10,563 nucleotides of DNA from Verrucomicrobiota bacterium (lineage in GTDB: Bacteria; Verrucomicrobiota; Verrucomicrobiia; Verrucomicrobiales; Verrucomicrobiaceae). The translations under genes were made by a program, and so were the position numbers. The notes beneath the pieces are model-generated. The model saw nothing but the letters and a program-made list of their open reading frames with translations, was not told where the DNA came from and did no database searches. Location of the stretch: the NCBI GenBank assembly GCA_009885275.1, contig VFKY01000121.1:1-10563 (forward strand), given 5' to 3'. Position 1 is the stretch's first letter; every line of letters begins with the position of its first letter. Below, piece after piece: positions 4,026 through 7,913 of this stretch.

Positions 4026-6425
4026 TTACCTGATCGTAGCTGGGAGCGAGCCAACGAGAGCTTTGAGCACGCGCTGATGAACTACCTCTACTTCATTCGT
4101 TTCGAGTGTGCGATCAGATGCACGATACGTCAAGCTCCATGCCACGGACTTCTTGTCACTTGACAATTTTTGTCCCGTTGGATCCGAGTAAACATCAAAG
4201 ACGACCGCATCGGTTAGCAGGGGTTCTTTTTGAGCGGTGAAGAAGGCTGCGATTTTTGAACTTGGTAGGTCAGTGGGCACTTCCAGGGCGACATCGCGAG
4301 TGATGCTGGGAAAGCGTTGTAGTTCTGTGAACTTAGCCAGGCCTTGAGCCCCTTGTTGCAGGGCATTGAGTGTAAGCTCAGCCACATAAATGGGATGGCG
4401 CGCATTGATCTCTCTCGCTCGAGCTGGCGCTACTTGGGCAATCCAACCGAGGGTTTTACTGCCACGTTTTACTTCTGCGCTGAGCAACCAGTCCTCTAGC
4501 GGTTTGGGGGTGATTTCTAGAGTCTGCCCCGCCATGCCCGGCAGTGATTCCAGAATGCCACGCAAATGAAACACATCCATGACAGGACTTTCCTTTTGAT
4601 GCCAACTTGAATTGATGGCCGGACCACTCAGAAGGAAAGCGATACGCTCTTCTTCACGGCTGCCTCCATTGGGAATGGAGAGGAAGACGCGACCAATTTC
4701 AAAGAAACACAGTTTTTGCAATCCCTGACGAATGTTCAGAGCGGCTGTTGCGATCAATCCAGGTACGATGCTGGGCCGAAGAACGGTGTGGTCTTCACTC
4801 AGAGGATTTTTTAAAGCGATGGCTTTTTCTATCGTCACTCGTTGACCGAGGACATGGGAAAGTTGCGCCGTGGAAATGAGCCTTAATGTTTGAGCTTCAA
4901 ACCAGCCGCGATGCACCATGGCATGACGTAGGTTCATGGCGAAGTCATAAGCGCGATCGGTGCTTTGGCTCGGGGTGAAAACTCCAGTGGTGCGGGAGGG
5001 AATGCGTTCCAGTCCGATGACTCTGGCGATTTCTTCGACCAGATCGACGGAGCGTTGCAGGTCGAGACGATGGCTCGGAATGTGCCAGAGCGATTTGTCA
5101 TCACTGGAGGAAATTTTTTTCAGCCCCAGAGAACTGAGCACGCCATGCATTTCAGCACTCGATAGATCAGGATTGCCAATCAGTTTGCGCGCGCGCACCT
5201 CATCAAATTCCACATCCTGCACCAGCACAGGTGCGGTTCCCGCAACGATGACTTCATCAGCGGCTTCGCCTCCGGCGATTTCAAGGATGAGTTTGGTGGC
5301 CAACTCGGAAGCATTAAGCACTTGTTGGGGATCGACACCGCGCTCGAAACGATAACTGGAGTCGCTGCTTAAAATAAGGCGACGCGCGGTGCGACGCACA
5401 TGGCTGGGAGTGAAGTAAGCAGACTCAAGGAGGATCGTAGTTGTGGTATCGGTCACGCCACTAGTTGACCCTCCCATGACTCCGGCAATGGCGAGAGCTT
5501 GAGTGGTGTCTGCGATTACGAGATCGTCCGTAGTAAGGGCGTAAGTTGCTTCATCCAGCGCGATAATGGTTTCGTCAGCCATGGCGTGACGCACGACGAT
5601 GCCGCTTTGGAGTTTTTCCGCATCAAAGGCGTGGAGCGGTTGCCCCATCTCCATGAGGACGAAGTTCGTGATATCCACGATGTTGTTGATCGGGCGCAGG
5701 CCGACACTTTGAAGCCGACTCTGTAACCATTCAGGGCTTGGTGCGACACGGACATTCTTGATGGTGCGGACCGTATAGAGCGGACAGCTCTCTGGAGCGG
5801 ACAACAGAACTTGGTTTGCTGCCGCTTTTGTTATTTTTGTCGTAGCGCTGGCTGTGGTCTTGATCAATGCATTGCCGGTCAATGCCGCAAGCTCACGCGC
5901 CAGTCCAGCATGACTCAAAAGGTCAGAGCGGTTTGGAGTGATCTCCAGATCAAAAATGACATCGGGTTGCACCACATCACGAAAGAGTTTTCCGACAGGC
6001 AGACTTGGATCAAGAATAAGGAGGCCACCGTGATCATCACCAATACCGAGTTCACGGCCACTGCACATCATGCCGTTCGATTCAACATCGCGGAGTTTGC
6101 CTTCTTTGATTTCGATACCGCCTGGCAAAGAAGCGCCTGGAAGTGCCAGCGGAATTTTGTCGCCTACTTTGTAGTTTTTGGCTCCACAGACAATCTGGCG
6201 CGGGGTGCCACTGCCATCATCAACCTGACAAACGCTGAGGCGATCGGCTTTTGGATGCGGCACCGATTCAAGGATTTGGGCGACCACGATTTTATCGGAG
6301 TCCACTCCCAGCACTTCAATACCTTCTACCTCAATGCCAGCGAAGGTGAGAAGATTACGCATTTTATCGACCGTGGTTCCAGAGAGATCGAGATGTGTTT
6401 TAAGCCAGGATAGGGAAGTTTTCAT
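4026..6425 (-). CDS. pheT: Phenylalanine--tRNA ligase beta subunit
   Basis: This is the beta chain of the heterotetrameric (alpha-beta)2 phenylalanyl-tRNA synthetase, providing tRNA binding and editing. Its 799 residues are normal length. The order is: N-terminal part starting MKTSLSWLKTHLDL; EMAP-II-like tRNA-binding domain with HPKADRLSVCQV (57-68), VCGAKN (79-84) and SNGMMCSGRELG (116-127); B3/B4 editing region including PLYTVRTIKNVRVAPSPEWL and GQPLHAFDAEKL; a B5 domain ending SVDLVEEIARVIGLERIPSR; a catalytic-like core; and a C-terminal anticodon-binding FDX-ACB domain (about the last 93 residues, FTELQRFPSITRDVALEVP). pheT is normally directly behind pheS, but here 471 bp separate them because a GxxExxY unit intervenes. 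The sequence before the ATG (CCTGTCCAAAGCATC) comes largely from the end of that unit and shows no Shine-Dalgarno. Confidence 0.97.
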   Translation of the reverse strand: MKTSLSWLKTHLDLSGTTVDKMRNLLTFAGIEVEGIEVLGVDSDKIVVAQILESVPHPKADRLSVCQVDDGSGTPRQIVCGAKNYKVGDKIPLALPGASLPGGIEIKEGKLRDVESNGMMCSGRELGIGDDHGGLLILDPSLPVGKLFRDVVQPDVIFDLEITPNRSDLLSHAGLARELAALTGNALIKTTASATTKITKAAANQVLLSAPESCPLYTVRTIKNVRVAPSPEWLQSRLQSVGLRPINNIVDITNFVLMEMGQPLHAFDAEKLQSGIVVRHAMADETIIALDEATYALTTDDLVIADTTQALAIAGVMGGSTSGVTDTTTTILLESAYFTPSHVRRTARRLILSSDSSYRFERGVDPQQVLNASELATKLILEIAGGEAADEVIVAGTAPVLVQDVEFDEVRARKLIGNPDLSSAEMHGVLSSLGLKKISSSDDKSLWHIPSHRLDLQRSVDLVEEIARVIGLERIPSRTTGVFTPSQSTDRAYDFAMNLRHAMVHRGWFEAQTLRLISTAQLSHVLGQRVTIEKAIALKNPLSEDHTVLRPSIVPGLIATAALNIRQGLQKLCFFEIGRVFLSIPNGGSREEERIAFLLSGPAINSSWHQKESPVMDVFHLRGILESLPGMAGQTLEITPKPLEDWLLSAEVKRGSKTLGWIAQVAPARAREINARHPIYVAELTLNALQQGAQGLAKFTELQRFPSITRDVALEVPTDLPSSKIAAFFTAQKEPLLTDAVVFDVYSDPTGQKLSSDKKSVAWSLTYRASDRTLETNEVEVVHQRVLKALVGSLPATIR

Positions 6426-6434
6426 GATGCTTTG

Positions 6435-6461
6435 GACAGGATTAACAGGATTATAAGGATT
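6435..6461 (+). repeat. Left terminal inverted repeat of the GxxExxY unit
   Basis: After one G, the end consists of three 9-bp iterations: ACAGGATTA, ACAGGATTA and TAAGGATT(T). On the minus strand it contains TATAAT (complement of 6450-6455), but no good -35 box stands at the right spacing, so an outward promoter for pheT is only a possibility. Confidence 0.8.
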
Positions 6462-6463
6462 TT

Positions 6464-6865
6464 TCAGGAAGGCAGATCCACTGTGATGGCGGGGCGAGGT
6501 TTGCGGTATTTGCGCTTAAAGTCGAGGCTGACAGCTCCGAAGTTGATCAGTAGGCCGGTCTCTACGCCTGTGGCGTTGAGATAATTGACGAGTTGGACTT
6601 CGTGGGCGGGATTGATTTTTTCTACAGATTTTAATTCAAGTATAAGACGTTTCTCTATGAGCACATCAGCGCAAAAGTCTCCGACTTTGGTTTTGCGATA
6701 GTACACGGCTATAGGCTCCTCGGTAGCGTACGCGATGTTTTCGTGTGTCAGTTCAAAACAAAGTGCATTCTGATAAACGCTCTCAAGAAACCCGGGGCCA
6801 AGTTCACGATGAACCCGCATGGCACAACCAATTACAAGCCCAGTAAGTTCATCGTTGATGCTCAT
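6464..6865 (-). CDS. GxxExxY protein, PD-(D/E)XK_3 nuclease-like family
   Basis: This 133-residue protein belongs to the GxxExxY family (PD-(D/E)XK nuclease-fold superfamily), whose function is not established. The naming motif is GFLESVY (G25, E28, Y31) in HRELGPGFLESVYQNAL. The nuclease core can be read as D67 in CADVLIEKR, then E77-L-K79 in LILELKS, then Q91 in HEVQLVNYL, so the catalytic residues appear intact. The ending GLLINFGAVSLDFKRKY is also typical. The start at 6865 is supported by an AAGGA Shine-Dalgarno (complement of 6873-6877) 7 nt upstream, supplied by the right inverted repeat. The stop at 6464-6466 lies 2 nt from the left inverted repeat. The gene is co-oriented with pheS and pheT and is probably co-transcribed. 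Nothing suggests a link to tRNA charging. Confidence 0.9.
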   Translation of the reverse strand: MSINDELTGLVIGCAMRVHRELGPGFLESVYQNALCFELTHENIAYATEEPIAVYYRKTKVGDFCADVLIEKRLILELKSVEKINPAHEVQLVNYLNATGVETGLLINFGAVSLDFKRKYRKPRPAITVDLPS

Positions 6866-6870
6866 ATCCG

Positions 6871-6897
6871 AATCCTTAAAATCCCGTTAATCCTGTC
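6871..6897 (-). repeat. Right terminal inverted repeat of the GxxExxY unit
   Basis: Read on the minus strand it is G followed by ACAGGATTA, ACGGGATTT and TAAGGATT, matching the left end at 25 of 27 positions. It supplies the Shine-Dalgarno of the GxxExxY gene, and its outermost base is the last base of the pheS stop codon. Confidence 0.8.
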
Positions 6898-7913
6898 TAA
6901 AATTGCCCCAAAAACCGCACGTCATTTTCAATCAGATGTCGTATGTCGGTGATGCTATGCAGGATCATAGCAAGGCGATCAATGCCCATGCCGAAGGCGA
7001 ACCCCGTGACTTCATCAGGATTGAATAAAGCATCTCCACGCTGCTGAGAGATGGCTTGGAACACGGCGGGATCGACCATGCCGCAGCCGGCGATTTCGAT
7101 CCAACGCGCTTCTTGTCCCTTGGCTTCAAGTTTCACATCGATTTCAAAACTAGGCTCGGTAAACGGAAAGAAGTGGGGACGAAATCGCACTTGAGTCTGT
7201 GCCCCAAGCATTTCTTGGAAGAAGTATTCGAGAGTGCCCTTGAGATCGGCAAGACTGACATCCCTATCGACATAGAGGCATTCGAGTTGGTTAAAAACAC
7301 TGAGGTGTGTGGCGTCAATTTCATCGCGTCGATAGGCGGCACCCGGAGCAATGATGCGAACAGGCAATGATTTTACGGATTCCATGGTCCGGACTTGCAC
7401 TGATGAAGTGTGGGTGCGGAGCAGGCGACCGTCAGGCAGGTAAAAGGTATCTTTTTCATTTCTTGCTGGATGATCAGCAGGAGTATTCAACGCATCAAAA
7501 CAATGCCACTCGGTCTCGATTTCAGGGCCATCAGCCAATGCAAAACCCATGCGGCGCAGTGTTTGAATAGCGCGATCGCGAATACGGGTCAATGGATGCA
7601 AGGCTCCGCTTGTGCTGGGGCGACCGGGGAGGGTGACGTCGATACCAGTCACTGATTCAGCATCCTTGGCGGATTGTAGGCCCAAAAGTTTTTCCTCAAT
7701 GCTTACCGTTAATGTGGTGCGCACCTCATTAAGTTTTGCTCCTACCGCAGGCTTCAGATCAGGGGGTACATCACGCATGCCTGCTGCTATGGTGGTGACG
7801 GAACCTTTTTTTCCGAGGTAAGCAACGCGGAAAGATTCCAATCCCGCTTCATCGATGATGGATGAGAGGGCGGCGAGGCCCTCTGTTTGGAGGAGATCAA
7901 GTTGGGTGAGCAT
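6897..7913 (-). CDS. pheS: Phenylalanine--tRNA ligase alpha subunit
   Basis: The catalytic class II subunit activates phenylalanine with ATP and charges tRNA-Phe, in complex with PheT. Its 338 residues are close to the usual length. An N-terminal coiled-coil tRNA-binding region (about 1-85, with VAYLGKKGSVTTIAAGMRDV) is followed by motif 1 (LHPLTRIRDRAIQTLRRMGF, 105-124), RTHTSSVQVR (166-175), motif 2 (GAAYRRDEIDATHLSVFNQL, 191-210), the phenylalanine-pocket stretch FPFTEPSFE (249-257), EIAGCGMV (273-280) and motif 3 (GFAFGMGIDRLAMI, 304-317). The C-terminus (ENDVRFLGQF) is complete, so the neighbouring insertion did not truncate it. A strong terminator lies between rplT and this gene, so expression needs read-through or its own promoter in 7914-7949. 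No clear Shine-Dalgarno precedes ATG 7913. Confidence 0.97.
   Translation of the reverse strand: MLTQLDLLQTEGLAALSSIIDEAGLESFRVAYLGKKGSVTTIAAGMRDVPPDLKPAVGAKLNEVRTTLTVSIEEKLLGLQSAKDAESVTGIDVTLPGRPSTSGALHPLTRIRDRAIQTLRRMGFALADGPEIETEWHCFDALNTPADHPARNEKDTFYLPDGRLLRTHTSSVQVRTMESVKSLPVRIIAPGAAYRRDEIDATHLSVFNQLECLYVDRDVSLADLKGTLEYFFQEMLGAQTQVRFRPHFFPFTEPSFEIDVKLEAKGQEARWIEIAGCGMVDPAVFQAISQQRGDALFNPDEVTGFAFGMGIDRLAMILHSITDIRHLIENDVRFLGQF

Follow-up and report, generated by a model that had tools for sequence, protein, structure and literature searches.

The 10,563-nt window analysed here, contig VFKY01000121.1 of a Verrucomicrobiota bacterium, is one entire contig (G000:C211) of a draft genome. On its minus strand it carries pheS, an open reading frame (ORF) of 133 amino acids (aa) and pheT, in this order. 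The ORF encodes a protein of the GxxExxY family and lies between two inverted repeats, with which it forms a unit of 471 nt in the junction of the two host genes. The GxxExxY family is common (one search scored 7999 candidates, of which 7719 were relatives), and to our knowledge no function has been assigned to it. The features are, in minus-strand order:

6897..7913, minus strand: pheS, upstream host gene (TIGR00468, 303.6 bits)
6871..6901, minus strand: start-side end, an inverted-repeat arm in which ACAGGATTA-type units recur about every 9 nt, containing the pheS TAG (6897-6899) and a Shine-Dalgarno-like AAGGA (6873-6877)
6464..6865, minus strand: gene for the 133-aa GxxExxY protein, with a predicted fold of the PD-(D/E)XK nuclease type that resembles Cas4 and lambda exonuclease
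6431..6461, plus strand: stop-side end, the second inverted-repeat arm, between the GxxExxY gene and the pheT start
4026..6425, minus strand: pheT, downstream host gene (TIGR00472, 727.9 bits)

The two arms form an inverted repeat of 31 nt with 90% identity, slightly longer than the 27 bp given in a first-pass annotation of the window. The gaps of 2-5 nt between gene and repeats that it described are present, 2 nt on the stop side and 5 nt on the start side, and the Shine-Dalgarno-like AAGGA lies inside the start-side arm, 7 nt ahead of the GxxExxY ATG, in line with its statement that the repeats carry the gene's own Shine-Dalgarno. The profile scores of pheS and pheT exceed the cut-offs along the length of both genes. 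The exact boundary needs one correction: the start-side arm overlaps the final five bases of pheS, stop codon included. Inside the ends, the GxxExxY gene is the sole ORF of at least 80 aa and there is no known transposase. The whole unit folds with -143.3 kcal/mol (z -4.2, 0 of 100 shuffles as good), the arms forming a single long stem; an Rfam scan of positions 6300-7050 matched no RNA family.

The 133-aa protein matches TIGR04256 (GxxExxY) with 139.3 bits, the cut-off being 35, and PF13366 (PDDEXK_3) with 136.8 bits. In an alignment of 68 sequences that includes the window protein, conservation is complete at G25, E28, K79, Q91, Y95, N108 and F109 and at least 90% at Y31, D67 and E77, so that the GxxExxY motif and the D67, E77, K79 set recognised earlier are confirmed as intact. 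The predicted fold matches solved PD-(D/E)XK members, and the protein is predicted to be a Cas4/lambda-exonuclease-like nuclease. This likeness comes from the predicted model, and the protein is shorter than Cas4, lambda exonuclease and RecB-type nucleases. Foldseek with the model returned no match below E 0.001, the Cas4 models of PADLOC match weakly (E 0.0095-0.017), and a sequence search for solved relatives gave a single chance-level match (E 0.25). The family name appears once each in PMC8934634 and PMC12085832. Among the matches listed for open-licence PMC papers, on GxxExxY as well as on four-helix-bundle genes, RAYTs and mobile intervening sequences, no title or abstract opening describes such units or inverted ends of GxxExxY genes, and the end sequences GGATTAACAGGATT and ACACAGAGACACAGAG and the name PDDEXK_3 found no literature match in the same collection.

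Inverted ends and repeat period in GxxExxY and four-helix-bundle loci

To see the ends beyond this locus, we scored the best inverted match between the upstream and downstream flanks of 80 GxxExxY loci from named genomes. These are the best 80 of at least 578 confirmed relatives and thus a top slice; one of them (L154) has no usable downstream flank, hence n = 79 in some counts. At a score of 14, a threshold set after seeing the distribution, inverted ends were found at 56/80 GxxExxY loci and at 7/237 neighbouring ORFs; at a score of 20 the counts were 34/80 and 4/237. The proposal that other GxxExxY genes have such ends is thereby borne out. The seven neighbours include two GxxExxY genes, one four-helix-bundle-like gene (by reading) and one repetitive extragenic palindrome (REP)-associated tyrosine transposase (RAYT). 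The latter (L212, 5504-6067, minus strand; NF047646, 104.4 bits) has long inverted ends. The median score was 17.5 for true flank pairs and 8.0 for flanks paired across loci. Direct flanking copies occur in 24/79 loci, 19 of which also have inverted ones, and 61/79 loci have either kind. Among 20 hand-picked GxxExxY loci from other Verrucomicrobiaceae, 16 reach score 14. At L175, L181, L189 and L224 entire hairpins seem to flank the gene as direct copies, unlike the single inverted ends described above.

The ends fall into several sequence types, among them GACAGGATTAACAGG, CACAGAG, CGCCAAG, CACGAA, CGGATT and TGATT, and the type follows the protein subfamily, even across phyla. In pairs of loci from different phyla, end similarity climbs with protein identity (Spearman 0.255, 0/1000 permutations), the mean end cosine being 0.05 for proteins of 30-35% identity and 0.29 for those above 60%. 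When 50 loci are placed on a tree, the six end classes require 13 changes as compared to 30.6 when shuffled (0/200 as low); the classes come from simple regular expressions, and 7/57 loci with ends remained unclassed and were excluded. Nine GACAGGATT loci form one supported clade with members from Verrucomicrobiota, Kiritimatiellota, Lentisphaerota, Chloroflexota and Myxococcota; five further rows that the regular expression assigns to the same class, AGGAT with 14 rows in all, are found elsewhere on the tree. The first-pass annotation had named other GxxExxY genes without these repeats in the same genome as an outcome that would speak against its proposal, and this outcome was found. The three other GxxExxY genes of the window's genome show no ends by score (C272), direct copies of another repeat type (C10) or a downstream side that cannot be judged (C98). 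We explain their lack of these ends by the dependence of end type on protein subfamily.

The arms are built from tandem units whose spacing also differs with the protein inside. The autocorrelation of GxxExxY arms (90 of 114, arms below 24 nt being excluded) has its maximum at 9 nt (z 16), with z 11 at 8 nt and an echo at 17-18 nt. Genes for four-helix-bundle proteins (TIGR02436) share the architecture, with 23/30 loci reaching score 14, and their arms have a period of 7 nt (z 21.7) with an echo at 14 nt. In a per-locus analysis that excluded arms below 20 nt, the best period was 8-10 nt in 42/49 GxxExxY loci from named genomes, in 12/14 other Verrucomicrobiaceae loci and in 24/24 loci at pheS-pheT, the last not being mutually independent; just one of these 87 loci was best at 7. 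The four-helix-bundle loci had a best period of 7 in 19/21 cases and of 8 in the remaining two. An independent four-helix-bundle set from viral contigs has inverted ends in 24/34 cases, and its 20 distinct arm pairs (identical pairs counted once) were best at 7 in 16 and at 8 in 4 cases. A best period of 8 therefore occurs in both classes, in 16/87 GxxExxY and 6/41 four-helix-bundle loci. The intervening sequence (IVS) in 23S rRNA of Coxiella burnetii, which has an S23-family ORF, is described in PMC4990558 as having a 28-bp terminal stem and tandem heptamers ahead of the ORF, which fits the 7-nt class.

Occupancy of the junction, exchange of units and gene-less copies

We searched 68 Verrucomicrobiaceae genomes, the window's included, with the GxxExxY protein and PheS, and read the pheS-pheT junction in 66 of them (all but G022 and G052). 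The GxxExxY gene adjoins pheS in 25/66 and is absent there in 41/66; one of the 25 (G050) has a contig that stops before pheT. Where the gene is absent, pheT comes next in 37 cases, after -4 to 146 nt, and was not found in 4. Some of these junctions hold gene-less hairpins of other repeat families, for example GACAGAAGAATGGGG in L079, L091, L099, L100 and L110 and ACCGCAGAGG in L088, L089 and L097, and one (L075) retains a single GGATT-type end. The hairpins of the first five loci, in several genus-g9 species, can be described as GACAGAAGAATGGGGACAG-type; yet other species have ACCGCAGAGG or ACCACGAATG hairpins. Of 39 further junctions from other families of the order, 31 have pheT next to pheS, three (L116, L117, L128) carry a four-helix-bundle gene and one (L125) a distant GxxExxY gene; by reading, each of these four units has its own nested-repeat ends. 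Additional four-helix-bundle loci lie between pheS and pheT in L325, L330 and L333. Seven units from four genera start flush with the pheS stop codon (L040, L041, L043, L044, L046, L047, L064). The idea that pheS-pheT is a site specially chosen by the unit is nevertheless not supported, since both genes were present in the fetched flanks of only 1/80 GxxExxY loci from named genomes (L163), and the tsaE-tsaB junction takes gene-less copies as well.

In 24 genomes, distances between GxxExxY proteins correlate with those between PheS proteins (Pearson r 0.79, 0/2000 permutations), which indicates vertical persistence. Descent is not strictly vertical, however. On a PheT tree of 60 genomes the presence of the unit needs 13 changes, 10 of them forced by starred branches. 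The sister species G065 and G067 are 98.8% identical in PheS and 97.3% in PheT and merely 51% in GxxExxY, and G036 and G013 are 97.3% identical in PheS and 57% in GxxExxY; the GxxExxY gene tree separates the rows of both pairs. Strict vertical inheritance is ruled out by such sisters carrying different units, and the alternative originally set against mobility, that all relatives hold the same unit by vertical descent, applies only in its milder form of partial persistence. GAATT predominates in the arms of G067 and G011, GGATT or AGATT in those of G065 and G066; G059 has ACAGGAGG. The unit fills the entire spacer from pheS stop to pheT start in G065 and G066 and leaves spacer on both sides in G067, and one genus-g9 group retains a similar spacer left of the unit. 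Because sister species with divergent GxxExxY proteins each have their own matching ends, gene and ends change together; in addition to vertical descent there is thus exchange, in which the two move as a single unit. This agrees with the small mobile unit envisaged in the first-pass annotation.

Copies of the ends also occur without the gene, which suggests movement in trans, as had been proposed. By reading, the window's genome has gene-less inverted GGATT pairs on contigs C96, C144, C39, C215 and C338 and single ends elsewhere. With up to two mismatches, GACAGGATTNACAGGATT gave up to 85 matches per genome in Verrucomicrobiaceae, in which one copy may be counted more than once, and the reversed control gave 0-1. 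The median number of end matches was 36 in the 25 genomes with GxxExxY at pheS-pheT and 3 in the 43 without (p 1.4e-7); the 43 include the two whose junctions were not read, and most Verrucomicrobiaceae genomes hold other GxxExxY types, a protein search finding some match in 65/68. Within genus g9 alone the medians were 36 (17 genomes with the gene) and 2 (31 without; p 6e-6). In G006, many of the 68 end matches are exact, both fetched GxxExxY genes are without these ends and there is no TIGR02436 match.

From 128 places listed in the window's genus we sampled 30 copies. Solo ends of about 40 nt account for 28, and the two paired copies correspond to the units at pheS-pheT in G065 and G066; several solo ends sit at the same place in sister species. 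G034 has gene-less pairs of about 160 nt, some of them tandem. The tsaE-tsaB junction was read in 15 genus-g9 genomes (G026 and G028 were also searched and not read across). A GGATT pair is present in three, G034, G048 and G043, the last with three tandem copies, and absent in twelve, five of which have a 31-nt gap without inserts. At four tsaE-tsaB loci (L375, L376, L380, L382) GTCATTCGTCATTC-like repeats occupy the place where other species hold the GGATT pair, perhaps as another end family. At L269 (748-1542), one solo end in G065 is followed by about 1.4 kb that carries two extra ORFs and contains a second, direct solo end; the counterpart in G066 (L279) has one solo end only. An integron-like arrangement of cassettes with a repeat after each gene, to which L269 had given rise, was dropped by reading because the outer side of solo ends also faces gene starts in other genomes. 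GAATT copy counts proved uninformative about end-type specificity, since the two-mismatch window counts GGATT too and the genus-g1 genomes G065-G067 have many of both. The end variant specific to G059 gave four hits in that genome, at three sites, two of the hits being its own pheS-pheT unit; the other 11 genomes yielded a single hit, with three mismatches, and a single control hit, numbers too small to carry much weight.

A candidate mobile unit, its relatives and alternative explanations

We consider it somewhat better than an even bet that we are looking at one copy of a small mobile unit defined by its ends, similar to REPINs and IVSs, whose nuclease recognises its own repeat ends. Such a unit would consist of the GxxExxY gene between two inverted ends, each made of three or so repeats of about 9 nt. 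The co-variation of protein subfamily and end sequence makes recognition of the ends by GxxExxY the most likely role of the protein. By trimming or cutting DNA at the ends, it may cause units, gene-less pairs and solo ends to be copied into intergenic spacers, where insertions would do little harm; in the window, the outer TTTAG of the unit even provides the pheS stop codon. Ends and units would spread in trans.

Several observations weigh against this explanation. Inverted ends are missing at score 14 in 24/80 GxxExxY loci, and many ends occur without GxxExxY at pheS-pheT in G006 (68 matches), G008 (47) and G047 (32). When phylogeny is controlled, the link between copy number and the gene at this junction is only suggestive: ten independent pairs of genomes gave 4.7 differences in the same direction, 0.0 opposite and 5.3 ties at a threshold of 15 matches (median p 0.0625), 4.3, 0.1 and 5.6 at a threshold of 10 (p 0.125) and 3.4, 0 and 6.6 at a threshold of 20 (p 0.25). 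Since the sampled copies in the window's genus are mostly solo and several are common to sisters, spread is not frequent there. The predicted fold is that of trimming nucleases and of no known strand-transfer enzyme. No clean target-site duplication was found; TA or TTTA is common at the ends and inseparable from the repeat, and the flanks are too diverged. Finally, binding and cleavage of the ends by GxxExxY, and a spread driven by this nuclease, be it by itself or together with a host factor, are inferred and not observed.

Two other explanations of the ends are unlikely, though they deserve weighing. An enzyme unlinked to the unit, for example a RAYT-like transposase, might move dispersed repeats, and GxxExxY would be a passenger or a host-serving gene caught between two inverted copies. 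Most sampled copies indeed lack the gene and many are solo, G006 has its 68 matches with no GxxExxY at pheS-pheT, and the transposase at L212 among the neighbour controls means that such systems occur in these genomes. A passenger, however, explains neither why end type tracks GxxExxY phylogeny across phyla nor why the internal period depends on the protein inside. No transposase with matching ends turned up, in the absence of a systematic search aimed at one. About equally improbable is an element acting at the level of RNA, with ends that pair in the pheS-pheT transcript into a long stem, which RNase III would cut as it does in the 23S IVS, and arms that co-evolve to keep the stem. The folding of the unit far below its shuffles is in line with this, as is the IVS itself, which according to PMC4990558 has a 28-bp stem, 428-444 nt, one small ORF and excision by RNase III. 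The longest ORF on either side is co-directional with the gene in 47/66 assessable loci, as judged from crude ORF picks. On the other hand, G:U-compatible transitions do not clearly outnumber incompatible ones among the arm mismatches (65:54 in the 80 loci; 26:16 in a non-independent Verrucomicrobiaceae set), the solo ends that dominate the sample from the window's genus are unable to pair, and direct flanking copies accompany the inverted ones at 19 of the 24 loci that have them. The wobble test and the solo copies thus argue against an RNA stem as the main reason for the ends.

Far less probable is a selfish nuclease of the homing type whose specific target is the pheS-pheT junction. The presence of the gene there in 25/66 genomes and the seven units flush with the pheS stop would suit it, but pheS and pheT flank a single named-genome locus, the same ends lie at many sites per genome, and unrelated inserts (four-helix-bundle units and gene-less hairpins) occupy the same spacer. 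We give as little credence to an operon gene that is passed on vertically and merely surrounded by ordinary repeats. The correlation with PheS distances and the spacer kept in one genus-g9 group speak for descent of this kind; the at least 10 presence changes forced on the PheT tree and the two sister pairs with very different units already contradict it. Carriage by phages or plasmids was also rejected. None of 50,697 phage records matches the window protein at E 1e-5, one peptide pattern run on viral contigs matched 28 stretches with no GxxExxY relative, and the 8 matches (E 1e-5) among 72,556 plasmid records are all typed non-mobilizable.

For the end-defined unit proposed here, REPIN/RAYT systems are the closest working analogue and the rRNA IVS is the closest architecture. 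PMC3116915 and PMC8049555 describe inverted short repeats associated with a gene, gene-less pairs and solo copies in intergenic DNA, and more copies in genomes holding the gene. For the GxxExxY units, too, intergenic DNA contains a short repeat both as inverted doublets and as solo copies, and copies are more numerous where the gene is present at pheS-pheT. In contrast, RAYTs are tyrosine transposases and belong to a different family, REPs are palindromes where GxxExxY ends, by reading, are tandem units of about 9 nt in one strand sense, and GxxExxY genes often occur in several subtypes per genome and are exchanged between species. With the 23S IVS (428-444 nt) the 471-nt unit shares its approximate length, inverted repeats of about 30 nt at the termini that can pair into one stem, a single small ORF and presence in only some strains. 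Tandem short repeats beside the ORF start are also common to both (heptamers GACAGAT in Coxiella, PMC4990558). The unit differs from an IVS in lying outside rRNA, in a protein operon, and in having a nuclease ORF and a period of about 9 nt, where four-helix-bundle units have 7 nt. It belongs to neither group, because partner protein, repeat structure and location differ. Gene-less pairs with short insides also resemble the miniature inverted-repeat transposable elements of DDE-transposase elements; here, the gene-bearing unit has no transposase and no clean target-site duplication was found, no search having been aimed at a DDE transposase with these ends.

The pattern reaches well beyond the pheS-pheT locus and suggests a kind of mobile element that has been overlooked. 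As a tentative generalisation, whose chances we put slightly below even, GxxExxY and four-helix-bundle (S23/IVS) genes may together make up a single class of small mobile units, so far without a name, that is widespread across many bacterial phyla and also occurs in some archaea. Its members would have a single small ORF, inverted tandem-repeat ends, a period set by the protein (about 9 or 7 nt), subfamily-specific reading of the repeat, and gene-less and solo ends spread by a mechanism without a known transposase. Linking every subfamily to the DNA sequence of its own ends would turn an unknown function into a direct question of binding and cleavage. Likewise, the architecture common to four-helix-bundle units gives a testable answer to what the 23S rRNA IVS is, namely one branch of a larger class of elements in operon spacers.

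The same contig carries a second, unrelated repeat, a direct one of 198 nt with 90% identity at 526-723 and 1450-1647. It holds a hairpin with 29-nt arms at 90-93% identity and a 16-nt loop.
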